A stretch of 64,000 nucleotides of DNA, from positions 44,868,494 through 44,932,493 of the forward strand of contig NC_053045.1 in NCBI RefSeq assembly GCF_003473485.1, written 5' to 3'. The stretch is from Medicago truncatula. Its lineage: Eukaryota; Streptophyta; Magnoliopsida; Fabales; Fabaceae. The notes beneath the pieces were generated by a model. It was not told the origin of the DNA, ran no database searches, and saw only the letters and a list, made by a program, of their open reading frames with translations. The first letter of the stretch is position 1, and every line of letters begins with the position of its first letter. Below are positions 31,304 through 55,309 of this stretch, in pieces. A program made the translations under genes and the position numbers.

Positions 31304-34300
31304 TCAAGCAATGCCAATGTCCTTAAATTTAGCCAAATGCTTCTTCCCATTCATGTGAGAGACCACATTGGCCTCACTAAGAAGGACAACATCACAGACT
31401 CTACATATTGATTTTGAATTATGCGTCCTAACAGGCTCAGCCTGGTTCTTTTGCACCTTATCATCCATCACTACTGTTCCCTTTAATCCTTTCTTAAGAA
31501 TATTATCTCCACTCTTAACATTGGAATTGAACTTATTGCTAACATCCTTCTGTTTCACCTCCTCTTTGGACTGATAGATGTTCAGCTTCTGCAGAGCAGC
31601 TTGCTTCTTTGCTTTCAAAGCAGCTTCACAACTAGCCCTGTGTTTCCTCCCATTAAGATGGGAATTCAAGGTTATCTTGCTCGATGTTGTTACCGAGCAC
31701 AAAGCGCAAGGCCACTCTTCCTGCAGTTCCTTCTGCGTAGAACTCTTGAGATACTCTTCACCAGCTTTGTCACTCTTTGCTGTTCCTTTAGTTTCTACTG
31801 TGGCTGATGATGCATTTTGACTTGACGCAATTTTAGGCATGACAGGATTATCCTGCAAATGGTAAAAATAGGATCAATATATACACATAAATACAGGAAG
31901 TGTGTGTAAAAATAGTAAGTCATATATGTGATTGGATAAAATTTCAAAGAAACTCTTCACGCTGATTCATGCAAATGCTGTCAAAACTAATAGGAGAATG
32001 GTGTTTATAATGAAGAACAATTACACGTGTTAATACAAACACGCATGATTGGTCTATACCTCGGTGTTTTCTGCAAAATAGCAAATCAAGAGTTTGTTGA
32101 CTCCTTAAAACATTTACACGGAGTGATTCTTGCCTTGTGTTATAATTATTTGTCATACCAAATAGCAATACTTAAACTAATAAAGCATTTTCCATTTAAG
32201 AATTGGCAATGTTTTGGTACACTTAATAATATCAGTCAAGAAGCTTGCTACCCCAATTTGCTTTTCAACTTTCAAGCAAAATGTCCCTACGCTATGGTTA
32301 TCAAAACTATCAACTTTGAATTTTAGACAAGTGCTTCCATCCATTTACGTGAGATGCCATATACTCCTCACTTGGAAGCATAACATTACAGACTTTACAT
32401 ATTAATTTGGAATTAATCATCCTAAAGGGTTCTGAAGGGTTCTTCTGCGGAGCAGGTTGCTTCTTTGCTTTCAAAGCTGCTTCACAAGCAGCTCTGTGTT
32501 TCCTCCCATTAATATGAGAATTCAAGGTTATCTGGCTCGAAGTTGTTACCAAACATAAAGCACAAGTCCACTCTTTCGGCACTTCCTTCTGTGTAGCAGT
32601 AGAACTCGGAGGAACCTCTCCACCAGCTGGGTCACTGCCATCTATTCCTTTGGTTTCTACTATGGTTGATGATGCCTTTTGACTTACAAAAATATTAGCA
32701 TACATTCTATAGCACCAACAACAATGCAACAAAATTCATGACCACATCCATACAATTTACACACACATGCGCACGCGCGCACTTGTAAGCCTAAAACTTT
32801 CACAAATGACCTTTTAGCATGCCTCAACTCAGGTCTAAAATTTTAATTTGTCCTTGGAAGATTTCTATTTTAAATGAATATATGAATTAATCCTTACTTG
32901 CTTGGTTACAGAAATTTCTTTTTTATCAATAGCCTCCAAATACTTGATGTTCTTTTTCTCTGTTTGGAATCTTTCTCCATTTTTCTGCACAAGAAGCTCC
33001 CTCATTAAGTAGTCTAAATGTCACCATGAGATGGGACATGTAGAATTGGACTCATACAAGAACTTGTAGCAAGAAATATATATTAATTTCAGAACACTTC
33101 ACATCAAAACTTTACCTTGGGTATTTTTTTATTATCAGTAGCTATGGTTTTATTTGTTGTCGCTTCTGCACCCTTTTGCTTCTGCCGGGTAGGTTGCTTC
33201 TTTGATATTAAAGCTTCACTAGTATCCCTGTGTTTCCTTCCATTAAGGTGGGAAATCAAGTCTTTCTCACGCGATGTTGTTACCAAACATATAGCACAAG
33301 TCCACTCTCTCTGCACTTCCTTCTGTGTAGAACTCCGAGGAACTTCTCCACCAGCCCTTTCACTCTCTGCTGTTCCTTTGGTTTCCACTGTGACTGATGA
33401 TGCATTTTGACTTGGCCTAATTTTTAGCATGACAGGAATATCCTGCAACATCCAAATATAAGCATAGAGACCAAGTACTTCATACAAGCAACCCAATATA
33501 ATTGGAACAATAAACATTTTCGAACATTTTCAACATATATCTAAGGTTATTATTACTCATGCATACAAAGGGAGAAAATAATTCAATCTGAAGATCTATA
33601 CTTCAAACAAGTGTGATATCATTAACTAACTGTTCTTGAAGGCCTAAACATTTCACAAATGACGTCTTAGCATGTCACAAGTCTAAAATTTTAATTGGTC
33701 CTGGGGGGATTTCTATTTTGAGTGAATATATGAATGAGGCCTTACTTGCTTGGTTGCAGGAATTTCTTTTTTCTCAATAGCTTCCAAACCTTGGATATCT
33801 TTTTGCTCTGTTTGGAGCCTTTCTCCATTTGTCTGCAGAAAGACCCTCTCTCATTAGTACTCTAAATGTCACCATGAGACTAAGACAGGTAGAATTGACT
33901 CATAGAAGAACTAGTGGCAAGAACTATATTAATTTCACAAATGACTTAGCATCAAAACTTTACCTTTAACATTTCTTTATCATCGGTAGCTGAAATTTCA
34001 TTTGTCGCTTCTGCATCAGGCCTACACATTGTGTTCTACAATATGATATATTAGCTAAAATTTTCAACTGCTTTGCAGATGTAAAAACATCCACATAATA
34101 CATGTCAAACTACTACAACTCTAGAAAAATTACCCTATGTTGGTTTGTACTCCAATTTTTTATACAACATAACTGTTTACCTTGCTAGCAATGAGTTTCT
34201 CTAAGGCTTCAGTTCCATTCTCTTTCATATATATCTCTGCATGCATTAAAAAGTTATCTTTCTCAAAAAACCACTTCTTCCAGGAGTTATTTAACCCCCA

Positions 34301-35588
34301 TGTGACTATGTGCGGTTTCAGAAAGCGACTGAGTTTATTATAAACATAAGAAGCTCGTCCAAAGTCTGGTATGATGAGCCAGAAGATGATCATTAGCTTA
34401 GTGTAGGGCCAGAGCTGAAACCTGATGTCAAACATGGTAATGAGGTAGTTAAAAACTTTTGATTTGATCAAAATCAAAAGGGAGTCATTTGCAACAATTC
34501 TTTTCATTGAATAAAATAGCAAGGTTTATTTTCTTATAGAGCAAAAGACATCCTATAAGGAATTTCATGCCTTAATTTCCACTAAAAATTTGGCACATTA
34601 AATGTGCATTGATTAATATCAAGTTCAATCAGATACTCATTCTCACTGAAAAAAAAAACCAACTTGGTCGATTCTTAGAAAGATTGCCGGTGAATTTGGC
34701 GAAATAACATTATGTCACCATGGCTTTAGCAAAAACTAAACTTTAGTTTAATAAAATCGAGTTCAGATTTGCTCCATTTATCTATCTTCCTCCATTAATT
34801 ATGAGAGAGATAGCCACAAGTGATAGATTAGTGTGACCAATTTTAATAAGTGGACCCCACAAATTCGCCAAACATACCACCAATACATGCATGCACTATT
34901 ATACTTTGATAGAAACCAGTACCAAACATAGAAATGGAATAGAAATAACCTATTTTATTAATAATAGAATATATATTTTTTACGTTAATAATATAAATAG
35001 ATTCCCAAGGAATTCTAGAGTCTTGGATCTCTCCCTCCAAGAATTCGAGAGCGTCTTTCCAACCAAAAACCAGTCCCCAGTAACTTATTCTCTAGTAACT
35101 GCCTAAAACATAATTTTCCTAATAATAATAATAGATCTATCATACTTATCGTTGTGAAAACAAAAAAATTACCATAGAAGAAGGTTCATAAAAGCATATT
35201 CAAAGAGGTAAATTAAGGAGAGAAGTATCCAATATGAGATCAAATCCTTAGTTTCTGCATAGGAGTCAGTTTCAATTGCTTGTACGGAAGCACACCTGTC
35301 AAAAACAGTAATCACATAAAAACGAAAAAAGAGCATAACAAAAATGTAAAAGGTAACAACTATTTCAATAGACCAAACAGCCTGCCAGAGCAAGAACTTA
35401 CATAGGATACACCAGAGCAACAAGAGGCCTAGAAAAGAGAGGGAAATAAAAGAAGGGTACTATTGATCAGCATCCAACTAATTAATAATGTGAAAAAAAT
35501 AAAGGAGGGATATACGTAATGCATTTTCATACCATGCAAAATGATAAAGGCATTTGAAAGTTAGTTTGAGAAACCATGAAGAAGCCAT
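31304..35588 (-). CDS. HVA22/REEP-domain U1-type zinc-finger protein, copy A
   Basis: Predicted exons: 35588-35533, 35428-35402, 35295-35173, 34421-34181, 34035-33964, 33832-33746, 33442-33116, 32984-32898, then 31852-31304; about 522 residues. Exons 1-4 encode a TB2/DP1/HVA22 domain: MASSWFLKL start, PLVALVYPM, QAIETDS, then SYWILLSLIYLFEYAF and LWPYTKLMIIFWLIIPDFGRA. These hairpin membrane segments shape ER tubules in the REEP/Yop1/HVA22 family. Exon 5 and two 29-codon linker exons are charged and helical. Fingers are C-x2-C-x12-H-x5-H (CAICLVTTS...HLNGRKH in exon 7, two more in the last exon), the U1 type associated with RNA binding. The terminal exon by homology to copies C and D (32310-32690) has a broken acceptor, so I chose the downstream exon, which splices in frame. 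A membrane-tethered RNA-binding role is inference. Confidence 0.75.
32310..32690 (-). pseudogene. Relic terminal exon of copy A (two zinc fingers)
   Basis: Homologous to the last exons of copies C and D: a SQKASSTIVETKG block, a CALCLVTTS finger, a second CKVCNVMLPSEEY finger, KHLSKIQS and stop. Where C and D have GTGCTAG followed by an in-frame codon, this copy reads GTGCTATAG. The original AG is gone and the next AG puts the sequence out of frame with an early stop (AAT GTA TGC TAA). The coding sequence itself is otherwise open. Confidence 0.65.
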
Positions 35589-36683
35589 TTACTACCAAAC
35601 TGAAGCTCTGAATGGAAAATGGAAAATGAAAAGTCAGTCTTCGTGAGTAAGTAAAATAATAAAGTAGGTAGGTTGCAAGTGGGAGGACGAAAATAAGATA
35701 TACGTACCGACACGGAGCAAAATGTCATTGGTCCCTCGTTCGCATCTTAAATACTACATACTTCAAGTAGGTCCCTCTCTTGTTTTTTATGCTTCTCATC
35801 CCCAAATCCTACAACCTGAATTGAATAATAAATCCGTACTCTTGAATGGGACCATTTTGCATTTTTTTTTTAACTCTTTTGGGGGCCAATTTGCAATTTT
35901 TGATTTTTTTTTTTTTTTGGTAAATTTATAACTTTTTAATAAATATATTGCCCATTTTTAAACTTTAGAAACATATGGGAGAAAGGAATTTCAAATCCCA
36001 AGGGTGCGCTTATTTAATAATTTTAAATTTATTTTCGAAATTAGGGAATCAAATTTTCAGATAGTGATGTAAATAAATATCTATGAATACAAATACTATG
36101 ATATATGTGCTCTATCCGTTATATAATTACGATATCCGTGTCTGCTTTGTATATGTGCATGTATCTATTGTTGCAAGGATCAAAATAATATGTTTCTTTA
36201 TTTGTAAGGACTAAAAATAAGAACTATTTTTTACAATAGACTAAATGTAAAATGTTGTATATTATCAGGGACAAAAATCATATTTATCTATGTTTGTGTT
36301 TATTCTTGGAAATAAAAAGTTCACACCCTCTTAACATGAGAATAAAATTTGAGATGTGTAAATTTTATTTCTGAAAATAAATAATACTTAAAAATATTTT
36401 TTATAAATTTGTACTAAACAATATAAATGTCAAATTCCTAACCTCACATTTTTAAGAATGTTTGTGTTAACCTTACTAAAAAAAAAAAAAGAATGTTTGT
36501 GTACACACCTTGCCTAAAATCCTCTAAGGATGCATATAGTAGTAAGTTAGACCATTGTTACGGTTATCATCAAAATCAACAAGTGGCTTTTACATCATCA
36601 TATGATCATAACCAAAATACAAAAATGATCGTAACCAAGAATGATCACAAAAAAAAAGTATAAGATCAGCATACAATAAAGAT
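35589..36683. other. Spacer between copies A and B
   Basis: Includes the 5' leader and promoter region of copy A, then AT-rich DNA with poly-T tracts at about 35858 and 35907. No gene recognised. Confidence 0.5.
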
Positions 36684-36960
36684 TCAACGACTGTTTGGTT
36701 CCAGAGGTGGCAACCTAGGAGGAGTTGGAATGAAATACGTGAACTCTGGTTGACGTGCCCATGATCCATCTGATCCATGATATGAAAATGGAACTCTTAT
36801 TGGAGGTGGCGTTGGTCCTCCAAAAGGCGCCGGTCCTCTGAAAGGTGTTGGTCCTCTATGATATGAAAATGGAACTCTTATTGGGGATGATGTTGGTCCA
36901 CCGAAAGGTGTTGGTCCACTGAGAGCTTGTGGAGAAGGTGTGGGTCCTATGAAATGGAGC
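36684..36960 (-). other. Proline/glycine-rich tail of copy B
   Basis: The last ~90 codons encode repeated GPTPF/GPAPF and GGPTSSPIRVPFSYH-type blocks (the PIRVPFSYH unit twice), ending PTPPRLPPLEPNSR. No other copy has it. Whether it is translated depends on splicing past two damaged sites. Confidence 0.6.
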
Positions 36961-39900
36961 TTTTGCATCCTTACTGGTCCCTTCAACCTGTTGTTAACAA
37001 TACCACCTCCATTCTCAACATCAGAATTTAACTTATTGCTAAAATTCTCCTGTTTCACCTCCTCTTTGGCCTTGTAGATTTTTAGCTTCTTTGCTTTCAA
37101 AGCTGCTTCACAAGCAGCTCTGTGTTTCCTCCCATTAAGATGGGAATTCAATGTTTTTTCACATGGAACTGTTACCAAACATAAAGCACATGCCCACTCT
37201 TTCTGCACTTCCTTTTGCGCAATAGTAGAACTCTGTGGAACCTCTACACCAACTGTGTCACTCTGCTGTTCCATTGGTTTCCACTGTGGCTGACGATGCA
37301 TTTGACTTGGCCAAATTTTAGGCATGAGGATATCCTGCCACCTCCAAATATTAGCATAGAGACTAAATACTTCATGCAAGCCAACCCGATATAATTGGAA
37401 GAATACACATTTTTTGAACATTTTCAACATAAAACTATGGTTGAAAAAAAGAAAAAAAAAACTTTGGGTCAATAGCCTACAAATTTTGAGTGAATATATG
37501 AATGAAGCGTTACTTGTTTGGTTGCAGGAATCTCTTTTTCCTCAATAGCCTCCAAATCTTTGATGTCTTTGTGTTCTGTTTGGAGTCTATCTCCATTTGT
37601 CCCCTTGAGATTGGGAGATGTAAAATTTACTCAAACAAGAACTTGTAATAAGAACTATATTAATTTCACAACACTTAACATCGAAACTTTACCTTTAGTA
37701 TTTCTTTATTATCAGTAGTTGTGATTTCATTTATCGCTTCTGCATCCTTTTGCTTCTGCAGAGCAGCACTGTGTTTCCTTCCACTGAAGCGGGCATTCAA
37801 GATTTCCTCTGCTGTTGTCAAACATAAATCACAAGTCCGGTCTTTCTGCAAATCCATCTGCATAGAAGAACTCTGAGGAACCTCTCCACCAGCCCTGTCC
37901 CCCTCTACTGTTCCTTTGGTTTCCACTGAGGCTGATGATTCATTTTGACTTGGCCCAATTTTAGGTATGACAGGAATATCCTGCAACATCCAAATAATAG
38001 CATAGAGACTAAGTACTTCATGTAAACCTACCCGGTATAATTGGAAGAATACACATTTTTTATCACATTTTCAACACACACACACACACACAATGTACTT
38101 GAAGGCTTAAACCTTTGGGGGCTTCATATTTTGAGTGAATGTGGATGAAGCCTTACCTGCTTGGTTTCATGAATTTCTTTTTTCTCAACAGCATCGAGAT
38201 CTTTGATAATTTTGTGTTCTGTTAGGATCCTTTCTCCATTTGTCTGCACAAGAAGCTCCCTCATTACGTACTCATGCTTTGTCTGTGAGTTGGATTTTAG
38301 AGGGGAGGGGAAGACCTCTTTTAAGTAAAATATTATTAAAAATGAATTAAGTTTGATTGAAGTACTCACTACGTCTCAAAATAATTGTCTCTAACATTTT
38401 TTCTCAGTCTCAAAATAATTGTCAGTTTAGAATATCAATGAAGCATTTACTGTTTTTTTCCACCATTATACCCTTATTTATTGAATTTCATCCAACTTAA
38501 TTATTCTACTAACTACAATTAATACGGGTATTTTAGTAAATGATACTAATTTTACCATTGAAATCAACACAATTAATCATTTCCTGAAAAATCGTATAAA
38601 AATCTTAAACGAGTATTATTTTGAGACGGAGGGAGTACTATATAATCATGTATCACGTTCATTTAGTTTTTTTTTAAAATATCAAATATAGATCAAAATA
38701 TAGACTTAGCTCTCCAAAATCCAACTCGCAGACAAAATTTAAATGCCTCGATGAGATTGGGACATGTAAAATTGACTCATACAAGAACTTGTAACAAAAA
38801 CTAATTGATTTCACAACACTTAACATCAAAACTTTATCTTTAGTATTTCTTTATTTTCAGTAGCTATGATTTCATTTTTCACCTCTGCATCCTTTTGCCT
38901 CTGAAGAGCAGCTCTGTGTTTCTTTCCACTCAGGTGGGAATTCAAGATTTTCTCACTCGTTGTTGTTACCAAACATAAAGCACAAGTCCACTCTTTCTGC
39001 ACTTCCTTCTGTGTAGAAGTAGAACTCTGAGGAACCTCTCCACCAGCGCTGTTTCTTTCTGCTGTTACATTGGTTTCCACTGTGGCTAATGATGCATTTT
39101 GACTTGGCCCAATTTTCGGCAAGACAGGAATATCCTGCAACATCCAAGTATTAGCATAGAGACCAAGTACTTCCTGCAAGCCAACCAATATAATCGGAGG
39201 AATACTCACACTGTTTTTGAACATTTTCAACATATATTTATGGCTATTACTCATGCATACAAGGGAGAAGATAATTCAATCTGAAGACATATACTTTAGA
39301 GTAGGGTGGTATCATTAAGTTTCTTACTCACAGGTAGAAAATAAAATATGTTCTTTTCATTTCCTACAAATAGCAAACTTTAGAATTTCTGAGCCATTTT
39401 TCGTCGCTCACATTTGTCACCCTTTGTTTCACACATTGTATCATGTTTCCTAGCTATCAAAAGTGAAGAATTAACTAAAGAAAACTGTAGTAAAATATCC
39501 ACTATTAGGAACAAACAATTACAATCATTGTAGAATTAATGAAAACATAGAAAAGTACAAGAAAAAACAAAAGATGATAAAAACTAGTACACAGTTCAAA
39601 GATTGTCATATGAGTGATATACAACCACTATGACAGTCATTTAAATGGGAGATTGTGACTATATTTTAGTTATAGATGAAAATGCAGAAACGCCTCAAAT
39701 AAAAGTACAGTTGGTCTAGAATCACCGAACAACAATCACAACAAAAATCGTGATCACATCCACACATTTCATATGTACTTGTAAGCCTAAATCTTTCACA
39801 AATGACCTCTTAGAATGCCTCAAGTCTAAAATTTATTTGTCTCTGGGAGATTTCTATTTGGAGCGAATATGAATGAAGTCTTACTTGCTTGAAAGCAGGA

Positions 39901-42069
39901 AGTACTTTTTTCTCAACAGCGTCCGAGTCTTTGATGTCTTTGTGCTCAATTTGGAGTCTTTCTGCATTTGACTGCACAAGATCAAGCTTCCTCATTAAGT
40001 ACTCCATACAAGAACTATATTAATGTCACAACTGACTTAATATTAAAACTTCACCTTTAGCATTTCTTTATTATCAGTAGCTATGATTTCATTTGTCACT
40101 TCAGGCCTACACATTGTGTTCTACAATAGGAAAAAACAAGAAAAGTTAGCTAAAGATTTCAATTCTATGCAGATTATGTAGAGACATATCACATACATGC
40201 TTCCCTATATAGTTCTAGAGTATAGTATTTAGACATTTTTAGCCTATGTTGGGTTTGTTCTCCATATTATTTATACACCATACACCATAGTCCATAGGGC
40301 CACATAGCTGTAATTACCTTGCTAGCAATGAGTTTCTCTAAGGCTTCAGTTCCGTTCTCTTGCATATATCTCTCTGCATGCATTAAAAAGTCATCTTTCT
40401 CAACAAAACACTTCCTCCAGTAGTTATTTAACCTCCATGAGACTATTTGCAGTTTCATGGGGCGAATGAGGTTATTATAAACATATGAAGCTCGTCCAAA
40501 GTCTGGTATGATGAGACAGAAGATGATCATTAGCTTAATGTACGGCCAGAGGTGAAACCTGATATCAAACATAGGAATGAAAGTAGTTACACAACTCCAT
40601 GAATTGGTTTAAGAAAACCAAAAGGGAGTCATTTGCCACATTTATTTTCATGGACTAAAATAGAAACAGTTTTTGAAGCAACATTCCTTTTCTTATAGAG
40701 AAAAAGACAGTCTAGAAGGAATTTCATCCCCTGATCTTGATCACAAATTTGGCACATAGAAAGTGCATTGACTAATCTTTAAGTTCAATCAGGTACTGAT
40801 TCTTAATGAGAAAAAAATGAGCTTTGGTCAACTCTCAGTAGATGTTTGGAGTTTTGATTAATTGTGAGTTTGGCAGAATCATGGTATGCCAAACTTATCG
40901 TCAATTAGAGGTGGAAATAAGTTGGGCCGATCAAATAGGCCTACAACCTATCCTACGTCAAACCCAGACCAGACTACAAGCCACTAAAAAACCCTTTTAG
41001 GCCACAAATAGTAGCTCTCAAGAAATTTTTTAGATGTTTATTTAGCTTAAAAAGTCAGGCTACAAGCCACAACAAACCTTTCACGCCTACCGAGTCAGCC
41101 TACTTAAGTAAATATGAATAATATATTTTTATTTAAATCATTACTTATATTATACTTTGCATAAATTATAAATTTGCTAACCTATTTAGAAATTTAAGCA
41201 TATTAGCCAACATTAATGTTTATACATATTTACACGTATTATTTAAAATAGAATAGAAATATGATATTATTTAAAGTCAAATGTTGTAAAATATCATGTT
41301 AAACATCAAAATGGAGCTTAATCTCAATGGTCTATTAGTTCCTTAGTCTATTTAGAGATATGTCAGATTACTTATTTAAAGACCTTAATATGAAATAACT
41401 CTTTAAGCACGCTAATTGATCAAACCAGACTTTCAAGAGAGCCAAACTCATACCTAAAAATAAGCCTATGACATATGGCAAACAAGACTTAGACCTTGAA
41501 CTTTTTGATCACGTCAGTCTTAAGTCTAGCTCGACCGGTCTTATTCCCACCCCTACCGACAATACATACATATGCTAAACTTATTATTGTAAGGGTTAAA
41601 TATGTATAGAATTTTATATTTTGAGGGAAAAGAATTTACCATAGAAGAAGGCTCATAAAAGCATACTCAAATAGGTAAATTAATGAAAGAAGTATCCAAT
41701 ATGAGATTATATTCTTAATTTCTGCATCAGAATCGGTCTCGATAGCTTGTATGGAAGCACACCTGTAAAAAAAAAAAAAAAATATCACAAAAGACCAAAA
41801 AAGAGCACAAGAAACCAAAATGTCAAAACAATAATCTAAAAGGTAGCAACTTTTTGCAATACACAAAACAGCAAGATCAAGAACTTACATAGGATACACC
41901 AGAGCAAGAAGAGGCCTAGGAAAGTAAAGGATATCAAGAAGAACAAACCATTATACTACTTTATGCATGAAGCTAATAATGTGAAGCAGAGAAAGGAGGA
42001 AAATTTTGCATACCATGCGAAGTGATGAAGGGATTTGAAAACGAGTTTGAGCAAGAATGAAGAAGCCAT
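36684..42069 (-). CDS. HVA22/REEP-domain U1-type zinc-finger protein, copy B (splice-damaged)
   Basis: Exon-equivalents: 42069-42014, 41915-41889, 41762-41640, 40558-40318, 40120-40055, 39971-39885, 39134-38838, 38243-38157, 37980-37693, 37600-37514 and 37334-36684. The HVA22 domain is intact (MASSFLLKL, ASIQAIETDS, LWPYIKLMIIFCLIIPDFGRA). Exon 7 carries a normal U1 finger, but its donor is AT instead of GT. Read-through adds three residues and a stop, giving a ~302-residue HVA22 plus one-finger protein. Downstream modules persist: a second linker, a finger exon whose first finger His is lost (LNARFSGRKH) and which is 13 codons shorter, a third linker whose acceptor AG is GG, and a last exon with one finger and a Pro/Gly-rich tail. 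The last exon has a short frameshifted stretch that restores itself. It may be expressed as the short form or be a decaying gene. Confidence 0.6.
38078..38092. repeat. (CA)n microsatellite
   Basis: About eight CA dinucleotides in an intron of copy B. Confidence 0.7.
38365..38635. mobile_element. Stowaway-type MITE in intron of copy B
   Basis: Ends CTCACTACGTCTCAAAATAA and, reverse-complemented, CTCCCTCCGTCTCAAAATAA, flanked by TA at 38363-38364 and 38636-38637. 271 bp, no coding. It lies in the intron between the first finger exon and the second linker exon. Confidence 0.85.
40906..41555. mobile_element. Old hAT element in intron 3 of copy B
   Basis: Ends TAGAGGTGGAAATAAG and, reverse-complemented, TAGGGGTGGGAATAAG, with an imperfect 8-bp duplication (TCGTCAAT at 40898-40905, CCGACAAT at 41556-41563). 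The interior has the GGCCTA/TAGGCC-rich repeats seen in the younger relative at 63325-63827. Fragments of the same interior recur at about 46545-46670 and 51885-52070. Confidence 0.7.
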
Positions 42070-43033
42070 GTGAGTCAAAATCAAATTCAATTCAAGCTAG
42101 TACCGATGGCTGTTGCAAAAGTATGAGAACCGAGGCCAGATAGGAAAAATAAACGAAACGATCATGTAAAAGGAAAATCGAAAGTCGGTTGCTGGGACTA
42201 AATAAAATAATCAAGATGAAGCAACTTGAGATGGAAGTTGGGACCAACAGACATGTACCTGGGGACTATTATATGTCAAACTTAGGTCAAACCAGAATTT
42301 TCTTTTCTCTTTGTAATTGTAAGTAAGTAAAAGTAGGGATGAGTAAAAGCAGTTTTCCTCACAAGGATTTTTATTTTATCTTTTTCTATACTTTTGATAT
42401 TCTGGTTGGCCAATGTCACATGACATTTGACGTTTTAATGTTACCCAAATGCTATCTGTAAAAGTTTGGATGACAAAGCGAGTCGGCCCGATCCATTTTT
42501 AATGTTTAAAATAATATGCAAATGTTAACTTGTGTCCTCAAGGGCACATATTAAGAAACTCATTATAAAAATATACATATTAAAAGTCGTGCATTCAACT
42601 TCTTAAAAGTTCAAAATATTATGTTTTCCAATGCAAAGTTGCACTTTTTAGATTCCTTAACATGTCCTTAGGACACAGGTTAACAAGACCCAAAACAATA
42701 TGATATGGGACAATTTAGGGGTTGTTTGTTATGGATTAGAATAAAAGTGACTTCATTTTTGGATAAACTGAGTACCCTTTCCGCGTAACTGCGAATACTA
42801 ATTCCTCGAGCATTGTGGGATTCAAATGGACGGCAAACTTTCCCCAAGAGTTTTAATGCTCAAGGCAGGATTCAAACTCAGGACCTTAGAATAAAAATGA
42901 TTTTGACATTGAATAATTTAAAGATTAATTTTTTATAGATTTTATAAAATAAAAAAAAATCAGAATCTAATCACACACAAGCACATAAAAATACATATTA
43001 AAACAATTAAAATTATTCTAGCGAAAATCAGAC
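42070..43033. other. Spacer upstream of copy B, with fold-back repeat
   Basis: Holds the copy B 5' region. A fold-back element spans about 42516-42690: TGTTAACTTGTGTCCTCAAG at one end and, reverse-complemented, TGTTAACCTGTGTCCTAAGG at the other. No clear target duplication. About 42735-42895 is less AT-rich but unrecognised. Confidence 0.5.
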
Positions 43034-43243
43034 TGTTACATTTGCTTTGACTGTGGACGTACCTTTCCAAGTGTCAATGTTTTGAATGTCCATCGAAGGA
43101 TACGATGTGTTCGTTGTGGATGTACTCAATCATGTCATTTGCGGGGTGATGCTTGTCAAATAATACTTGTTTATGTGTGTAATGTTTGTTCAAGGGTGTT
43201 TTTTAGTAGAGAAGAATGTGACAATCACATAGCTGATCATTAA
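43034..43243 (+). pseudogene. Small Cys-rich zinc-finger gene, unit 1 (start codon lost)
   Basis: The frame is open for 69 codons to TAA and encodes the whole family pattern (CFDCGRTFPS...VHRR, CVRCGC, CNVCSRVF...CDNHIADH). The region aligning with the ATG of units 3 and 4 reads ACTGTTACAT, so the initiator is gone and no in-frame ATG precedes the first CxxC. All finger Cys and His are intact, so either a recent loss or an upstream exon is possible. Confidence 0.65.
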
Positions 43244-44625: not shown

Positions 44626-45470
44626 TCCTTCCCCAAAGGTTTTTAGTGTTTTTTTTTTCTTTCTTCATGTTGGGTCAAGTCCCTTTTTCGACACAAAAAA
44701 AAAAGTATAAGGTGGATAGATATTTTAGGAAAACATGTTAGAAAGGCTAAGAAAGTCACAAGACTATAGCTTTCACGAACACAAATAAAATGGGGGAGAC
44801 TATTAGGTGCAACTCACTTGTTTTCATTTTAACTAGATGCTAAAAAGTTAGTGTATGTGTGTTGTGTAGATCAATTGACATTATGGTGTCAAATTAAACA
44901 ATACAACACCTTCCATAAGTATTTACCATATAGATCTATATTATCACATAGAGCATGTCTACAAAATATCACATTAACCATATCTCATTTTGTACGTTAA
45001 CAAGATACGTAAAAATTAACGTGTTTGATAAAAGTTCATCGACATAACTTACATGCAGCTCATTGGCATATCAATCGATATTCGATTATTGTTAAATTTT
45101 GTTTACATAATGTATGTGGTAATAGCTTTTAATGCAACATTTATAATACGGTTATGTGGTAAAGAGTTACGACGTGTCATACATTATTTTGCCGCCAAAT
45201 ATTAATCTTTGATTTATTTTAAGACAAATGCATACATGTGCAATAAGTGCACAAGTTAACAAACAAAAATAATATTGAAATCGTCAATTCTAAATTTGAA
45301 ATTTAAAAATTTTATCTTTTATATGTAAATTTGTTTAGAATTTAGATATTATCTCATAATATATTATGATAATTTACTTTTTTTTAATCATAAAATATTA
45401 TGAAAATTACTTTTATTTTATATATAAAAACCATATATTACTTTTTTCAATCTTGATCCTTTCGCAAATA

Positions 45471-45473
<3 letters not shown>
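44626..45473. other. Conserved AT-rich tail of repeat unit
   Basis: About 44790-45180 matches 60955-61400 (GGTGCAACTCACTT, TGTGTAGATCAATTGACAT, TTATGTGGTAAAGAGTTAC). No gene seen. Confidence 0.55.

Positions 45474-45538
<65 letters not shown>
45474..45538. repeat. (TA)n microsatellite
   Basis: About 65 bases of TA dinucleotides. TA arrays occur at the same relative position in the repeat units near 55.6, 59.5 and 61.7 kb. Confidence 0.95.
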
Positions 45539-45539
<1 letters not shown>

Positions 45540-45752
45540 CGATGATAATATTTTAAATTAAATCGACAAAAATTAATATTATATTATAATATGTATAATA
45601 TTTTTTGTGAGTACTTTTAAAATTAATTTTGTTACTTCGATATATTGTTTAGAAATATAACCTCTTATTTTATGCAATATAAATTTGTGACTTACCTCAA
45701 ACTTCAATTCACTACGTACACTTTGTTTGTCAATAACTTTTGATACTTTGTC

Positions 45753-45893
45753 GTTCCCATGAGCTTAGCTCATTTGATAAGGGATAATGCACAATATGTG
45801 AAGGGGTTGGGGTTTGAACCCCGGACACCCCAATTATTCATCTTTAAGGTGAATTTCTCTAGCCACTAGGCTACCTGACAAAAAAAAAAAAAA
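45753..45893 (+). mobile_element. tRNA-derived SINE, second copy
   Basis: Same family as 6823-6961 (CATGAGCTTAGCTCATTTG box A region, GGTTTGAACCC box B, GGCTACCTGAC, poly(A)). It is flanked by a perfect 18-bp duplication AACTTTTGATACTTTGTC at 45735-45752 and 45894-45911. It landed 26 bp upstream of the ATG of the unit 2 zinc-finger pseudogene. Confidence 0.88.
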
Positions 45894-45918
45894 AACTTTT
45901 GATACTTTGTCATTAACA

Positions 45919-46103
45919 ATGTTCCATGTTTGCTTTGAATGTCCATCGAAGGGTGCAGTGTGTGGTGTGTTCGTTGTGGATGTACTCAATCATATCATTT
46001 GCAGGGTGATGTTTGTCAAATAATACTTGTTTATGTGTGTAATGTTTGTTGAAGGGTGTTATTTAGTGGAGAAGAATGTGACAGCCACATAGTTGATCAT
46101 TAA
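45919..46103 (+). pseudogene. Small Cys-rich zinc-finger gene, unit 2 (deleted)
   Basis: ATG and the first residues (MFHVCFE) are present. About 35 bp that encode the rest of the first finger are missing, apparently through recombination between TTTGA repeats, and this shifts the frame. Downstream the family sequence continues (GTTCGTTGTGGATGTACTCA), with a TGA replacing the Ser codon in the last finger (TGTTGAAGG). Confidence 0.8.
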
Positions 46104-46759
46104 AAATTCTCCGAGAAGATATATATGAGAAGACCGTCTATGCATGCACGTTTTATATGTTTTAATAATTATTTTATCATTTTTATTTATTATAGTTTAG
46201 GATTCTTTCATATTTTTAGGAGTTTTTATATTATTTATATGATTTAGTTGTTTCATCAATTAAATATTCTTAGGTTTCATTATTATCTTATTATTATTAT
46301 TATTATTAAAGGTGCATTTATGGATAAATCTAATAAATTATTATTCATGAATTCTGTGTGAATTCCATGGTCTTCATGTTTCAAAATATAATTTCGGATC
46401 TTCTTTTTTGGGTTGTGTTCCATAATTTTAATTTATTTTTCGTTCTTCGACAACATAAAATTAAAAGAGACGAAAAAATTATGTTAACTTTTACTTATAA
46501 ATAAGGTCAGAGCAAGTGGTTATATAGAATGTCATATAAATTAAGATAAAGATCATGTTAGATCCTTAAATAAAACTTAATTTCATTGGCCTTTTGGCTC
46601 AGTAGTTTATTTAAAGATATGACGTTAATATGAATAGACATTTAAATAGATTAACTCATGTCAAAATTTTAATAAATTACTCTCTACGATTATTATTATA
46701 ATCAAAATTCATTTTTCAAATTTAATGAATAACTCTTTCTAGTCTATTACAGACCAAAT
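46104..46759. other. Unit 2 tail and hAT fragment
   Basis: About 46155-46480 is the conserved tail shared with the other units (TATTATTTATATGATTTAGT, GTGTGAATTCCATGGTCTTC). About 46545-46670 resembles the interior of the hAT element at 40906. Confidence 0.55.
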
Positions 46760-47560
46760 ACATTAGTTATCCAATGCATCTGCCTGAGCGCATTCAATGA
46801 CCCCCTAGAGTGCATTCATCATGTGCTCCATTGTAGTCCATAATATATATATATACTATTGCAATATGCCTCAAAATTATGCTTGTGTGAAAGTGCCAAA
46901 ACGTGACATGATTTGGGTAACGTGTCATGATTTTGGCATGTCGTGAGCATGTTTTCTGAGTGTCCAATCGTGACACAATTTTTGGAAAACGTGTCACAAT
47001 TTTCGGCTTGCTAGGCACGTTTTCTAGATAAGGTTGATCGTACCTTAGGTCGTACGCACCAACCGTGTCACGATTTGGCAAAACAATGTTCTTTGCAGAT
47101 TTTGAAGGAGAGGTTGAAGAGAGAGAAACTTGGAAAATCAAAGGAGGTAACTTTTGGTTGAGGGTCTTTGATTAGAGTTCTCTTGATTTGGCAAACATTG
47201 TAAACACCTTGGGTGAGTGAAAATCATTGAGTGTCTTGTTCATTGGTGAGATTGGGAAAATGGGTAGAAATTAAGGTTGTTCTTTGTGAGCTTGTTGAAG
47301 CTAATTTCTTGTAACCCATTTGTATCCCTTTGTAAGAACTCATTGATAGTGGATTGGAGAGATCAATCTCTCCCCCATATTAGATCAAGTTGGACCGAAC
47401 TGGGTCAACAATTTTGGCGTGTTTGTTTCTCTTCTCTCTTTATCTTTTGCTTGTGGTTTTGAGTTTTTCACTTTGATTACTAGATTAGATCTAGGTGTTG
47501 TTATTATTGTTGTTGCTTGTGTTTACTTTGAAATTGATTACTATATAGGTTGGCCTGCTA
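46760..47560. mobile_element. Possible Copia-type LTR fragment
   Basis: The block is clearly less AT-rich than its surroundings. Its downstream half reads like the transcribed part of a Ty1/Copia LTR (GTAACCCATTTGTATCCC, GAGATCAATCTCTCCCCC, a TTCTCTTCTCTC tract). No primer-binding site, internal region or target duplication was found. The upstream half has repeated CGTGTCA(T/C)GATTTT motifs. It may be a solo LTR or a fragment. Confidence 0.35.
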
Positions 47561-47651
47561 TGCTTAAGCCACATCATAGTTTGTATTGGTGTGAGTTTTG
47601 AGTCAGAATTCACAACATATAGGTTGGCCTGCTATGCTTAAGCCACATATG
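47545..47651. repeat. Direct repeat (~30 bp, two copies)
   Basis: The unit TAGGTTGGCCTGCTATGCTT followed by AAGCCACAT occurs at about 47546 and 47620, ~74 bp apart. Confidence 0.8.
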
Positions 47652-48246
47652 CTCAGAGTCTTCACCTTCCTAGATTTATCATAGTGGATTAAACAATTGT
47701 CAATGAAAGCATCTAGCAGAGGTGTTTGAATGTGGCCCCAATGCTTATGCAGAGTGGACTTGAGAAGTAGTATGGTCCTTTGCCATATTCTGCATCGTGA
47801 ACAGAAGACAAGAAAACTGAAGGAATAGATACGGATGGTGTGGGTCTAATGTGGAGTACAGGATTGCTAATATTCAGTAAAAGAAAGTTTCACAAAAGGA
47901 TCATGAATGCAAAAGGATCAGGAAAAGATTAAAACTTAGATTACTTAAGAAGATAACTAATATTTGGTGCAAAAAATTTCTTACAAAATCTGCTATGTCA
48001 AAGTAGGATCAACAGACAACATATACACACACTAGAAACGTGGGTAAAAATAGTATGTCAAATGTGTGATTAGATAAATTTCGAAGAAACTTTTCATGCA
48101 AATGCTGTCAAAAATAATAAGCATTTTCCATTTTAGAATCAGCAATGTTATGGTACAGCTATTATCAGTGGAGAAGGCTTGCTACACCAATTTTCTTTTC
48201 AACTTTCAAGCAAATATCCTTCTAACATGGTTATCTCAAGTAACTA

Positions 48247-51082
48247 TCAACTTTTAACATTAGACAAGTGCTTCCACCCTTTTATGTGAGAGGCCACGTA
48301 GTCCTCACTTGGAAGCATAATATTACAGACTTTACATATTATTTTGGAATTAATCATCCTAATAGGTTCTGATAGGTTCTTTTGCAGGGTAGGTTGCTTC
48401 TTTGCTTTCAACACTTCCATAGTTTCCCTGTGTCTCCTTCCCCTGAGGTGGGAAATCAAGGTTTTCTCACACGTAACCGTTACCAAACATAAAGCACAAG
48501 TCCACTCTTTCTGCACTGCCTTCTGTGTAGAACTCTGAGGAACCTCTCCACAAGCTGTGACACTCTCTGCTGTTCCTTTGGTTTCTATTATGGCTGATGA
48601 TGCCGTTTGACTTGCCACAATATTAGCATAGGTTCTCTAGCACCAACAACAATGACAACAAAAATCATGACCACATTCACACAATTCATATATATAATTG
48701 TAACTTTGTAAGCCTAAACTTTCACAAATGACCTCTAAGCATGCCTTAACTCTACAATTTTAATTTGTTTTAAGGAGATTAAGATTTAGTGAATATATGT
48801 ATGAAGCCTTACTTTCTCGGTTGAAGGAAATTCCTTTTTCTCAATAGCCTCCAAATCCTTGATGTCTTTGTTCTCTGTTTCGAGTCTTTCTCCATTTGCC
48901 TGCACAAGAAGAAACTCATCAATCACTTGAAATATGTCACCATGAGACTCGGAAAGGTAGAATAGACTCATACAAGAACTATATTTAATGTCACAACTGA
49001 CTTAACATCAAAACTTTACCTTCAGTATTTCTTTATTATCAGTAGCCATGATTTCATTTGTCCCTTCTGCATCCTTTTGCTTCTGCAGGGTAGGTTGCTT
49101 GTTTGCTATCGATAAAGCTTCAATAGTATCTCTGTGTTTCCTCCCAGTGAGGTGCGAATTCAAGTCTTTATTGCTTGTAGTTGTTACCAAACATAAAGCA
49201 CAAGTCCACTTTTTCTGCATTTCCTTCTGTGTACAATCCTTTGGAAACTCTCCACCAGCTCTGTCACTCTCTGCTGTTCCTTTAGTTTCCACTGTGACTG
49301 ATGATGCATTTTGACTTGGCCCAATTTCAGGAATGACAGGAATATCCTGAAACATCCAAATATTTGCATCAAGGCCGAATATTTCATGCAACTTGCAAGC
49401 CGACCCGATATAATTGGAAGAATACACATTTCTTAAACATTTTAACGTATAACTGTGGTTATTACTTATTAGTATTACTCGTGCATACAAGGGAAAGGTT
49501 AATTCAATCTGAAGATGTATACATCACAGAAGTGCGATATCAATATCATTAAATGTACTTCAAGGCCTAATCCTTTCATAGATAACCTCTTAACATGCCA
49601 AAAGTCGAAATTTTAATTTGCGTTTGGGAAATTTCTATTTGAGTGAATGTGAATGAAGCCTTACTTGTTTGGTTGCAGGAATTTCTTTTTTCTCAATAGC
49701 TTCCAAATCTCTGATGTATTTGTTCTCTGTTTCGTGTCTTTCATCATTTGTCTGCACAAGATGTTCGGTCCTTAAGTACTCTAAATGCCACCATGACATT
49801 GGTATAGTTAGAATTAACTCATACAAAAACTTGTAACATCAAAACTTTACCATTAGCATATCTTTATCATCAGTAGCTATGATTTCATTTCTCACTTCTG
49901 CATCAGGGCTACACGTTTTGTTCTTCAATAGGATAAAAGAAAAGTAAGCTAAAATTTTCAATTGCTAATGCAGATATAGAGACATATCAGATACACAAAA
50001 ATGCTGCCCTATATAATTCTTCTAGAGTTTTAGTATTTGGCATTTTTTCGCAATAAATCTTGTAATTACCTTGTTGGCAATGAGTTTCTCTAAGGCTTCG
50101 GTTCCATTTTCTTTCATATGTCTCTCTGCATGCATTAAAAAGTTGTCTTTCTCAACAGAACATTTCGTCCGGTAGTCATTTAACCACCATGTGACGATGT
50201 GGGGTTTCATGGTGAGAATAAGTTTATTATAAACATAAGAAGCTCGTCCAAAGTCCGGTATGATGAGGAAGAAGATGGCCATTAGCTTAATGTACAGCCA
50301 GAGGTGAAACCTGATATGGAACATGGGAATGAAGTAGTTAAACAACTGCATGAATTGGTTTCTAAAAAAATAAAAAAGAAGTCATTTGCAACATTTCTCT
50401 TCATTGAATAAAATAGCCATATTTCTTTTCTTATACAGCAAAAGATCGGCATCCAGGAAGGAATTTCATGCCCTAATAGTCTCTATTAAGAATTTGGCAC
50501 ATTAAAAGTATCAAAAGTTCAATCAGGTACTAATTCTCAGTGGAAAAAAATTAACTTGCTCATTCATAGAGGCAAAGATCATTTTGCCAAACTGACTATC
50601 ATGCATACTACTTGTGGCAAAAAAACAAGGCTGTTACCGTATTTGAGGGAAAAGAATTTACCATTGAAGAAGCCTCATAAAAGCATACTCAAAGAGGTAA
50701 ATTAATGAAAGAAGTATCCAATATGAGATCAAATCCGTAGTTTCTGCATAGGAATCAGTCTCGATTGCTAGTACAGAAGCAAACCTGTCCGAAAACCGTA
50801 ATCATATAAAAAAAAAGAGGAGCATTATACAAAACAATAATGTAAAAGGTAGTAACTTTTTCAATACACCAAACACCCCAGATCGATGAAGAACTTACAT
50901 AGGATACACCAGAGCAACAAGTGGCCTATAAAATAGAAGGAAATAAAAGAAGGGTAACGTTGATTAGCATGCAGCTCATAATGTGAAGGAAGATGAAGCA
51001 AGAAAAAGGGAAATGCATTTGCATACCATGCAAAATGATGAATGCATTTGAAAGCAAGTTTGAGAAGCCATGAAGAAGCCAT
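48247..51082 (-). CDS. HVA22/REEP-domain U1-type zinc-finger protein, copy C
   Basis: The cleanest copy. Exons: 51082-51027, 50925-50899, 50784-50662, 50310-50070, 49922-49851, 49751-49665, 49346-49020, 48899-48813 and 48636-48247; 469 residues, all splice sites GT-AG and no frame break. Residues 1-149 form the HVA22 domain (MASSWLLKLAFK, SYWILLSLIYLFEYAF, LIIPDFGRASYVYNKL). Exon 5 and two 29-codon linkers (NDERHETENKYIRDLEAIEKK and relatives) are charged helices. Three U1-type fingers start near Cys251, Cys387 and Cys441, each C-x2-C-x12-H-x5-H. HVA22 proteins are ER-tubule and ABA/stress-linked. U1 fingers commonly bind RNA. The combined role is unknown. The last exon begins after GTGCTAG with an in-frame codon, which defines the ancestral acceptor. 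Confidence 0.85.
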
Positions 51083-52966
51083 ATCCCTGACTAGGAATCA
51101 GTTTGAATTCAAGCTCCTAATGGATATTGCTTCAGCATAAGTACCGAGGCCTTCCAGATAAAGAGGAAGAAGTAATGGTAGCATGTAAAGAGAAGAGCAA
51201 AAGTCGGTCTTAGTAAATAATCAAGTCAAATTCTAATTAGTGGTGAGTGGAAAATGGGAAGATGAAACAGTACACGACCTTTGCCCTTTACTAAGTTTTA
51301 AACTATTAACTGATCCACCAATTTTTTCTTTTTTCTTTTACTATTTACTTAAATTAGTATTTTATAATATAATTTTACTTTTTTTTAAGGAATTTATATA
51401 ATTTTACTTTTTTATTCCATACAAAAAATACTAAGGAATATATATGGTCTATGCAATTTCAAAGACGAGTACATCTAAACCCTATTAAGCTCTTTCAACT
51501 TACGGTAAAATTTATTTAGGTAACATAAAAATACAGAAGGCTTGCATGGTAGCTCCCGACAATCAAGTTACTCTCTCAATATCCAAAATATGTCACACCA
51601 TCGTCATTCGACCTTGTTTGCATCCAACCAGATCTTAATTCAGTCATTGTATTCTATTTTCTAGGTCCCTTCACAACCAATTTTTTTTTTTTCACTATCC
51701 CACATTTCTATCGTAGTTTATGGAGAGAATCGAACATTTTATTATTTTCTATTTTTTACTTTATTTTTAGTGAACATTTTTTTTAACATTCACTTTGATG
51801 ATGACAACTCTGAAATAGTAGAAAAAAAACACATGTGTATACAATTAGATGTCATGCAATTTAAAATTCTCCAAAAAGGTCGTGCTAGATTTTAATCTGA
51901 TTGGTCTATATAGTCTATTTAAAAAATATGTTAGATTATTTATTTTAAGACATTATGAAATAAATTAGTAAGTAGGCTAACTTATACCAAACTTTTACTA
52001 TAAAGCCGACTTTGACTTTGAATTTTTTCATCATTGAGGAGGCCTTGCAAAGAGTAGTCAATATCCACTCCTAAAAGCAACACAAATGTGAAATGTACAA
52101 TGTCTTTTTTTTTGGACCAAAAAATGTACAGTTTTAAAAACACAATTTAGTTAAAAAGTGGTGCAAGTGAGAATAGAAAACATGACACAATTGATGCAAG
52201 AGGGCATCACCTAACTCAATCCATGTTTTGAAGAAGAAATTTTTGGAGGTACCACGTTTACCCAGAGTTACTCTACCTGCACGGCTAGGCAACCTTTCCA
52301 CCCAAGAAGCCGATAATTGATCCTGTCCATTAGCAAGTCACCTGGGTCCTGGCTCATATTTTGGTAGAGCACTAATATTTGGTAGAAAATATTTCGTACA
52401 AAAACAGCTATGTAAATATAGCTAGTCACATAAGAGACTGGATAAAATTTCAAAAAATACTTTTCGTGCTGATTCGTGCAAATGCCGTCGAAACTAATAG
52501 GAAAATGATGTTTGGGGGGTAGTCCATATTGTAAGCTAGTCTTTATTTTGACTTTAATTGGGCTCACTAGTGGACGGTGGAATTGGTCCCTAATATTAAT
52601 CAATCATTGGATCTCAAATACCAAGTTAAAAAGCAAATAGGAGGACGATGTTTGTATTACAAATAACAATTACACGAATAATATGAACTCAAGGGATTGG
52701 TCTATACCTCTATGTTTTCCGCCAAACAGCAGATTAAGAGTTTGTTGACTTCTTAAAACATTCTCACGAAATGATACGTGCCTTTCGTTATAATTGTTTG
52801 TTTGTCGTATCAAAAATAACAATACTCAAACTAATGATCATTTTCCATTTGAAAATCAGCAAAGTTTTGGTACAGCTGTTATAAGTGAAGAAGGCTTGCT
52901 ACACCAATTTCCTTTTCAACTTTCAAGCAAAATGTATCCCTGTGGTAAGGTTATCTACAGCAACTT
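51083..52966. other. Spacer between copies C and D
   Basis: Upstream of copy C, AT-rich. About 51885-52070 is a fragment of the hAT family at 40906. About 52370-52966 is the 3' flank shared by copies A, C and D (GCAAATGC(T/C)GTC(A/G)AAACTAATA, ACTTTCAAGCAAA). In D it is interrupted by ~130 bp (about 52515-52645) bracketed by GATGTTTG. Confidence 0.55.
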
Positions 52967-55309
52967 TCAAGTTTGAATTTTAGACAAGTGCTTTTTCCCT
53001 ATTAAGTGAGAGGCCATGTATTCTTCACTTGAAATCAAAACATTGCAGACTATACATATTATTTTGGAATTAATCCTCCTAAAGGGTTCTTCATGCAGGT
53101 TTATCGCTTTCAAAGCTAATTCACAATTAGCCTTGTGTTTCCTCCCATTGAGGTGGGAATTCAAAGTTTTCTCGCTCGATGTTGTTACAATACATAAAGC
53201 ACAAGTCCACTTCTTCGGCACTTCCTTCTGTGTAGCAGAACTCTGAGGTAGCTCCCCACTAGCAGTGTCACTCTCCGCTGTTCCTTTTGTTTCTTCTATG
53301 GATGATGATGATTTTTGACTTGCCACAATATCAGCATAGGTTGTCTAGCACCAACAATGGCAACAAAAATCATGACCTCTTAGCATTGCTCAAGTCTAAA
53401 ATATTTGTCCTTGGGAGAATTCTATTTGCAGTGAATATGAATGAATCCTTACTTGCTTGGTTGGGGGAAAATCTATTTTCTCAGTAGCCTCCAAATCCTT
53501 GATGTCCTTGTATTCTATTTGGAGTCTTTCTCCATTTCTCTGCACAAGTTCAAGCTCCATCATTAAGTACTCTAAACGTCACCATGAGACTAAGACAAGT
53601 AGAATCGACTCATACAAGAACTTGTAACAAAAACTATATTAATGTCACAACTGACTTTACACCAAAAACTTTACCTTTAATATTTCTTCACTATTAGTAT
53701 CTATGGTTTCATTTGTCACTTCTGCATCAGGCATACACATTGTGTTCTTCAATACCAAAAAATAAAAAAACAGAATTAGCTAAAACTTTCAATTGCCAAT
53801 GCAGATATAGAGTTATCATATACAAATAAATGCTTCCCTATATAATTCTTCTAGAGTTATAGTAATTTGATATTTTTAGCTGTAATTACCTTGCTAGAAA
53901 TGAGTTTCTGTAAGGTTTCAGTTCCATTCTCTTTCATATATCTCTCTGCATGCAGTAAAAAGTTATCTTTCTCAGCAAAACAATCTCTCCAGTAGCTATT
54001 TAACCTCCATGTGACTATTTGCGGTATTGTGGAGCGAATAAGGTTATTATAAACATAAGTAGTTCGTCCAAAATCCGGTATGATGAGCCATAAGACGATC
54101 ATTAGCTTAATGTACGGCCAGAGCTGAAACCTGATGTCAGACATGATAATCAAGTAGTTAAAAACTACTTGAATATTGGTTTGAAAATAACATCGAAAGG
54201 GTGTCATTTGCAACATTTCTTTTATGGGGAAAAAGACATCCCAGAAGGAATTTCATGCCGTAATAATCTCAATTAAAAATTTGGCACATTAAACATGCAT
54301 TGATTAATCTCAAGTTCAAATCAGGTACTCATTTTGAGTGAAAATAATGGACTTGGTCTCTTAGTACATATTTGAATTGCCGGTGAATTTGGGAGAATCG
54401 AGGTACGTCATTGTAATTTTGGCAAAAGCTAAACTATCAAGATTCAACAAAACTAGTGTCCGTGATTTCACCAAATTCACTGTCAACCCAGATGTGTTAT
54501 ACTTATGGTGATAATATAATACCAAGATTGTTTCCATATTTGAGGGAAGACAATTTACCACAGAAGAAAATCCATAAAAGCATACTCAAAGAGGTAAATT
54601 AAGGAAAGAAGCATCCAATATGAGATCAAATCCTTAGTTTTCGCACTGGAATCAGTCTCGATTGCTTGTATGGAAGCACACCTGTCCAAAAACAGTAGTC
54701 ACAAAAAACAAGAAAGAGAGAACAACAAAACAAAATGTCAGAACAACAATCTAAAGGTGGAAAAAATTTCAATACACCAAACACTAAGAGCAAGAACTTA
54801 CATAGGATACACCAGAGCAAGAAGAGGCCTAGAAAGAAATGAAGGAAATAAAAGAAGGGTAGTGTTGATTAGCATGCAATGAAACGGAGATGAAAAGGAT
54901 CAAGAAGAACAAACCATTATACTACTGGGTTAAGATCCTCTCCATTTATAAATTTCTCCATTTATTGCAATTTGGAAAGAGATAGACACAAAAAATAAGT
55001 GGTGGATCCTATTACTAAGTGGGTCCCACCATCATTAATTATTTTTTACTTTTTATGTGTCTTTATCTCTCTAAATGGAACAAATGGAGAAATTTATAAA
55101 TGGAGAGGATATTGACCCTATACTACTTTGTAGTTTATACATGAAACTGATAATGTGAAGATATATGAGAAAACATAAGTGTATTTATTTTTTCAAGAAA
55201 AAAGAATAATAAAAATGAGAAAGATGAAGCAAAGAAAGGAGGGATATACATACCATGCAAAATGATGAAGCCATTTGAAAGCCAGTTTAAGAAACCATGA
55301 AGAAGCCAT
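52967..55309 (-). CDS. HVA22/REEP-domain U1-type zinc-finger protein, copy D (short form)
   Basis: Exons: 55309-55254, 54828-54802, 54681-54559, 54130-53890, 53746-53675, 53539-53453 and 53344-52967; 327 residues with clean GT-AG sites and frame. It has the complete HVA22 domain (MASSWFLKLAFKWLHHFAW, SYWILLSL, LWPYIKLMIVLWLIIPDFGRT), exon 5, one linker exon (RNGERLQIEYKDIKDLEATEK) and a terminal exon with two U1 fingers (CALCIVTTS...HLNGRKH and CIVCNVLIS...HLIGKKH). It lacks the extra finger-linker pair of A and C. This is either the ancestral short form or an exon loss. Intron 1 holds a Mutator-type MITE. Confidence 0.85.
54927..55118. mobile_element. Mutator-type MITE in intron 1 of copy D
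   Basis: Long inverted ends: GGGTTAAGATCCTCTCCATT and, reverse-complemented, GGGTCAATATCCTCTCCATT, each continuing TATAAATTTCTCCATTT. They are flanked by a perfect 9-bp duplication TATACTACT at 54918-54926 and 55119-55127. 192 bp, no coding. Confidence 0.9.

Follow-up and report, generated by a model that had tools for sequence, protein, structure and literature searches.

Four tandem genes and their exons

We analysed a 64,000-nucleotide stretch of Medicago truncatula DNA (contig C4:44868494-44932493, hereafter the window), in which positions 31304-55309 of the minus strand hold four tandem genes, A to D, with identical exon order and strand. The open frames of each gene can be spliced into one chain that joins an HVA22 membrane domain to zinc fingers. 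The sequence was read and splicing was modelled from conserved exon edges; all proteins described here are thus modelled proteins, built from genomic DNA and not from transcripts, and we infer that the same splicing would occur in vivo. An earlier note on this DNA had placed four minus-strand HVA22-finger copies here, and this was borne out, as the ATG of copy D begins at position 55309 and the stop codon of copy A ends at position 31304, exactly as the note had them. All introns of the four base models (28 of 28; 8 in the long model of A, 6 in the short form of B, 8 in C and 6 in D) are GT-AG introns with matching phases, and modelled splicing also agreed that C and D are clean and in frame throughout. 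The genes are as follows.

52967-55309, minus strand: gene D, 7 exons, 327 amino acids; HVA22 domain, one linker exon and a two-finger terminal exon; the simplest layout, clean
48247-51082, minus strand: gene C, 9 exons, 469 amino acids; HVA22 domain and three fingers; clean
36684-42069, minus strand: gene B, HVA22 exons open, exon 7 a finger exon; short form of 302 amino acids with one finger
31304-35588, minus strand: gene A, 9 exons, 522 amino acids; HVA22 domain and three fingers (long model)
32310-32675, minus strand: terminal exon of an alternative form of gene A, 461 amino acids, three fingers

The HVA22 part spans exons 1-4; charged linkers make up exon 5 and the 87-nucleotide exon 6, and the fingers lie in the remaining exons. 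When single exons were used as tblastn queries against the window, each of exons 1, 3 and 4 gave four hits, the linker exon eight and the first finger nine; exon 2, with 9 codons, is below the usable length for tblastn and was placed by eye. The exons of the HVA22 part are located as follows.

35533-35588, 35402-35428, 35173-35295, 34181-34421 (34181-35588), minus strand: A exons 1-4
42014-42069, 41889-41915, 41640-41762, 40318-40558 (40318-42069), minus strand: B exons 1-4
51027-51082, 50899-50925, 50662-50784, 50070-50310 (50070-51082), minus strand: C exons 1-4
55254-55309, 54802-54828, 54559-54681, 53890-54130 (53890-55309), minus strand: D exons 1-4

The linker and finger exons follow downstream.

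33746-33832, minus strand: A exon 6, linker exon (87 nucleotides)
32898-32984, 39885-39971, 38157-38243, 37514-37603 (90 nucleotides), 49665-49751, 48813-48899, 53453-53539, minus strand: other linker exons
33116-33442, minus strand: A exon 7, internal finger exon
32310-32675, minus strand: A alternative terminal exon, two intact fingers, modelled acceptor further in
31304-31852, minus strand: A terminal exon, two fingers with a long charged spacer between them, AG acceptor
38826-39134, minus strand: B exon 7, finger; donor AT instead of GT, runs into a stop
37693-37980, minus strand: B finger exon, degenerate finger, first His lost
36684-37334, minus strand: B terminal exon, one intact finger and a proline-rich repeat tail (36684-36960), no second finger
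49020-49346, minus strand: C exon 7, internal finger exon, tail homologous to exon 5 of A, B and C
48247-48636, minus strand: C terminal exon, two fingers
52967-53344, minus strand: D terminal exon, two fingers, modelled with AlphaFold2

The chance adjacency of an HVA22 gene and a finger gene was considered and rejected. Because the exons recur in the same order and on the same strand in four copies, with intron 4 only 143-197 bp long in all of them, and because 12 of the 13 finger units keep their motif, chance is no serious alternative, and the union of HVA22 domain and fingers in one chain looks real. Judged by their sequences, the four genes are tandem paralogues that belong to a plant HVA22-zf-met subfamily.

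Domains of the modelled proteins

Pfam searches identified a complete TB2_DP1_HVA22 domain (PF03134) in all four modelled proteins, at 57.0-66.3 bits against a cut-off of 27.2, and in the same chains zf-met (PF12874) at 36.9-84.3 bits against a cut-off of 21.2. Both families are over their cut-offs in one protein in every model, as the earlier note had expected of such a search. An NCBIfam search with D returned no match. In the hydropathy profile of D, the 19-residue means are above zero over residues 1-43 and 37-97, with a maximum of 1.69 at residues 67-85. The HVA22 part of B had no match among the Protein Data Bank (PDB) sequences at E up to 10. For HVA22 exons 1-4, the pairwise ratio of nonsynonymous to synonymous substitution rates (dN/dS) was 0.37-0.78 in six pairs, and the bootstrap upper limit was below 1 in four of the six; these ratios make it fairly clear that the HVA22 part is under moderate constraint.

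The fingers had been described as U1-type with the spacing C-x2-C-x12-H-x5-H. Exon translations and a motif scan of the models confirmed the spacing in 12 of 13 finger units. The family name fared less well, since zf-U1 (PF06220, cut-off 22) only equals its cut-off in C (22.0), falls below it in A (17.1) and is unlisted for B and D at E up to 0.01. The double-stranded RNA-binding family zf-C2H2_jaz (PF12171, cut-off 22.6) scored above its cut-off in A (45.0) and D (35.6), below it in C (21.6), and was unlisted for B at E up to 0.01. On these profile scores zf-met is the better fit, and 'U1-type' is a loose label. In the long model of A, the short form of B, and C and D, all nine finger regions carry a net positive charge (+2 to +5), and residues 151-243 a net negative one (-2 to -10).

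A profile built from eight finger exons of the window was searched against the PDB sequences at E up to 1 and matched eight of them: STPAP/TUT1 twice (4.9e-6, 1.3e-5), SCAPER (0.00089), the double-stranded RNA-binding ZFa (0.0026), SF3A2 twice (0.028, 0.12), SCNM1 (0.054) and ZNF346 (0.31). We take all eight to be RNA-processing, RNA-binding or ribosome-associated proteins. AlphaFold2 modelled the D terminal exon with a mean predicted local distance difference test score of 68.7 and a predicted template modelling score of 0.33; residues 1-39 were below 50 and the block means of the rest were about 67-89, and strands and helices were formed in both fingers. Foldseek placed three human Bact/pre-Bact spliceosome chains and the double-stranded RNA-binding ZFa at ranks 1-4; these are weak matches (E 0.024 or worse), the long alignments at the top had root-mean-square deviations of 11-18, and none of the 247 PDB matches reached E 0.001 or better. 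Because the profile matches are to RNA-linked proteins and the fingers are net basic, it is likely that the fingers bind RNA.

The likeness to SCAPER lies in a similar finger type (profile E 0.00089; D finger 2 by phmmer, E 0.0091). It covers one finger of about 34 residues, and with no PDB match to the HVA22 part it is an analogy only. SCAPER is recruited to ribosomes in the decay of tubulin mRNA (PMC10403363).

Growth of the array and its relatives

The copies differ in how many linker-finger modules they contain: D has no extra module, C has one, A has one plus a second terminal exon, and B has two. The tail of D exon 5 resembles the tails of the internal finger exons of C and B in three places (E 0.001-0.023), and the tail of the internal finger exon of C resembles exon 5 of A, B and C (E 0.0004-0.023). 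The matches in both directions are short and weak, and they are mutually consistent. The exon 5 tails concerned are given here.

33964-34035, 40055-40120, 49851-49922, 53675-53746, minus strand: exon 5 tails resembling internal finger-exon tails (tblastn)

The simplest account would be unequal crossing-over between a terminal finger exon and exon 5, which would create a linker plus finger module. Duplication of such a two-exon module, the 87-nucleotide linker exon and a finger exon, would then change the number of fingers in the family.

The genome (429.9 Mb, 42 contigs) was searched with PF03134, which gave 17 matches. In the window this search reached exons of C and D and none of A or B; its sensitivity is thus limited, and further HVA22-finger pairs may be missed. 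Searches with the D and A terminal exons placed a finger next to an HVA22 match at just one site beyond the window, C5:29.49 Mb. The membrane domain itself is common to REEP, Yop1 and HVA22 proteins without fingers, and apart from C5:29.49 Mb the other genomic HVA22 matches had no adjoining finger match in this search, which missed A and B. The related locus is as follows.

C5:29484500-29494400, about 3594-6336 within that stretch, plus strand: HVA22-like/zf-met/RVT_3 locus, HVA22 part diverged, unspliced reading

Here an HVA22-like stretch scores 28.1 bits, over the cut-off, but is read across two stops and probably runs into an intron. A second HVA22-like exon scores 18.4 bits, below the cut-off. 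Downstream of both, one open frame encodes a single zf-met finger (32.9 bits) together with an RVT_3 domain of the RNase H-like type (103.4 bits, cut-off 21.6). A tree of the HVA22 domain was built from 11 rows, the four window copies and seven other loci, some of them partial, with the stop-containing copy at C5:17.31 Mb left out. In the tree A-D formed one group (95/95), and the branch leading to the fused relative on chromosome 5 was very long; because of that branch, the HVA22-finger fusions may or may not share one origin. Open reading frames (ORFs) at C3:17.77, C4:62.23 and C4:62.64 Mb match the fingers, with two finger-like motifs each by eye and no HVA22 match nearby in the PF03134 search, and could be the source family of the fingers. 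A weak finger match lies at C3:7.75 Mb (E 0.0013). Positions C5:17306000-17321000 hold more HVA22 copies, one with in-frame stops, in which fingers were undetected.

The window also contains features outside this family.

43022-43243, 45853-46023, 57657-57881, plus strand, with repeats to 62585: second repeated family of short C2H2-like ORFs, whose flanks are duplicated at spacings of about 2.9 kb and 16.1 kb; zf-C2H2_6 is over cut-off in the 57657 ORF only, and Pfam gives no match for the 45853 ORF
21293-23502: large array of imperfect repeats with a 60-bp period in both orientations; inverted pairs are 85-94% complementary among the matches listed
772-2904 and 10913-13033, plus strand: pair of legume-lectin receptor kinase genes that closely resemble each other, at a distance of about 10.1 kb
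3581-5521, minus strand: interrupted reverse-transcriptase pieces (RVT_1, zf-RVT) between the lectin kinase genes, probably a non-LTR (long terminal repeat) element
16473-17666, plus strand: ORF with a Zein-binding domain (PF04576), a domain that occurs in plant myosin-binding proteins

Rfam (gathering scores) and ARAGORN searches over the window gave no matches.

A possible role at the endoplasmic reticulum

The earlier note had implied that the combination of HVA22 domain and fingers is rare, and this found no support, as the fusion is already in print for tomato (PMC9602767), for twelve Solanaceae proteins (PMC9933743) and for a Medicago pair (PMC7460785) and is not new. In tomato, SlHVA22f and SlHVA22k are the only two of 15 HVA22 proteins to carry ZnF_U1, ZnF_C2H2 or RVT_3 beside the HVA22 domain, which is their likeness to the genes described here (PMC9602767). 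SlHVA22f fused to GFP is found mainly in the endoplasmic reticulum (ER) of rice protoplasts; SlHVA22f rises with salt and abscisic acid (ABA), and SlHVA22k does so under heat, drought, salt and ABA (PMC9602767). The Solanaceae set comprises 12 named HVA22 proteins with Zf-met (SpiHVA22m, SpHVA22j, CaHVA22i and others), which unite a TB2/DP1 domain and Zf-met in one protein as here, and six with RVT-3; its discussion links Zf-met to RNA binding (PMC9933743). SpiHVA22m, SpHVA22j, SlydHVA22k and SlydHVA22b have 8 exons, compared with 7-9 here, and the accessible text describes neither a four-copy tandem array nor an internal linker-finger module (PMC9933743). A survey of Medicago C2H2 proteins lists MtrunA17_Chr4g0049671 and Chr4g0049701 as a tandem chromosome-4 pair resembling HVA22 (PMC7460785); they are probably genes of this window, where four copies are present instead of two. 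In the accessible text of a cotton HVA22 survey 'zinc finger' occurs in the reference list only (PMC10025482), and 'zinc' is absent from that of a passion-fruit survey (PMC10835403). Searches of an open-access library yielded no functional study of an HVA22-finger protein, of its RNA binding or of RNA tethering at the ER. What is newly detailed here is the history of the module and the chromosome-5 relative with HVA22-like exons, zf-met and RVT_3.

We propose that the HVA22/REEP hairpins (about residues 27-103) would sit in the ER membrane and that the C-terminal part would face the cytosol, with an acidic linker followed by one to three basic zf-met fingers. These would most likely bind structured RNA or an RNA-protein particle, so that the protein may act as an ER-anchored RNA adaptor, perhaps in stress, with a finger number varied by duplication of the two-exon module. 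We put the probability of this reading at about 0.5. It is favoured because both domains share one modelled frame in all four copies, the HVA22 part is constrained and 12 of 13 ligand sets are intact; because basic fingers follow an acidic linker, all eight PDB matches are RNA-linked and the Foldseek top ranks, though weak, are similar; and because D exon 5 and the internal finger exons of C and B have matching tails. The HVA22-like/zf-met/RVT_3 locus on chromosome 5, the Solanaceae fusion (PMC9933743), and the ER location of SlHVA22f-GFP and the stress response of SlHVA22k (PMC9602767) point the same way. The earlier suggestion of RNA-binding fingers tethered to the ER is partly supported, by the modelled single product, the RNA-linked likeness of the fingers and the ER location of SlHVA22f (PMC9602767), without the rarity it had implied.

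Several observations weigh against the RNA-adaptor reading. In gene A, the terminal-exon acceptor used by C and D reads AT, not AG (by eye); exon 32310-32675 therefore needs another acceptor, and the gene may read on to 31304-31852 instead. In gene B, the AT at the exon 7 donor lets the frame run into a stop once one finger has been read; the models bypass this stop, and gain access to the downstream finger exons, only by skipping exon 7 (571 or 542 amino acids), and one of the downstream fingers (37693-37980) is without its first His. The dN/dS of the finger exons was 0.35-1.15 (36 pairs of nine exons), with the bootstrap upper limit below 1 in two of the nine pairs bootstrapped, so constraint on the fingers appears weak by this measure. 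The array could be decaying, with an HVA22 part that still matters and fingers that are drifting passengers: a donor and a finger ligand are gone from B and an acceptor from A, and dN/dS is 1.02 for A7-B7, 1.04 for B7-B9 and above 1.09 for three pairs with B9. We nevertheless consider such decay unlikely, since C and D are clean, the four ligands are intact in 12 of 13 units, the upper limits of dN/dS are 0.75 for A9alt-Dlast and 0.91 for Alast-Dlast, and the fusion persists in Solanaceae (PMC9933743). The weak finger constraint and the varying finger number would also suit an ER-anchored adaptor whose fingers bind a protein partner instead of RNA and whose HVA22 part, as in other HVA22 proteins, helps to shape the ER or to move vesicles. 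zf-met fingers are able to bind proteins or DNA too. Proteins known to partner HVA22/REEP relatives include the Sey1/RHD3 homologue and seipin (review PMC9437294). This explanation deserves serious attention but seems doubtful to us, as all eight solved structures that match the finger profile are RNA-linked and the related locus adds an RNase H-like domain.

DNA-bound zinc-finger arrays also occur among the Foldseek matches, where CTCF is listed at lower probability, and WoLF PSORT predicts SpiHVA22m and SpiHVA22b (Zf-met) and SpiHVA22f (RVT-3), all from S. pimpinellifolium, to be nuclear (PMC9933743). Both would fit a membrane-held regulator, in which the finger part, released from the ER by cleavage or translated from a short transcript, acts on RNA or DNA in the nucleus; with SlHVA22f-GFP mainly in the ER (PMC9602767) and the closest solved sequences RNA-linked, this appears rather improbable. 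Also against the RNA-adaptor reading, transmembrane domains are predicted to be absent from SlHVA22f, which may carry either the fingers or RVT_3 (PMC9602767), and the S. pimpinellifolium namesake SpiHVA22f is of the RVT-3 type (PMC9933743). In addition, SlHVA22k goes down in cold and SlHVA22f under cold, heat and drought (PMC9602767).

A bolder extension of the RNA-adaptor reading, which we regard as a long shot, is that the array is an evolvable RNA-capture system of the ER surface, changed by repeated unequal crossing-over, and that its sister gene equips this membrane with a nuclease domain of the RNase H-like type; selected RNAs, possibly those of viruses or stress, would then be sorted or destroyed on the ER tubules of plants. 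Regardless, a fusion already in print gains from this locus a clear tandem example and a history of module duplication. Should these proteins indeed retain RNA at the ER, ER shape and the handling of RNA in plants would be linked within a single protein, and the copies with one, two or three fingers would form a natural test series.

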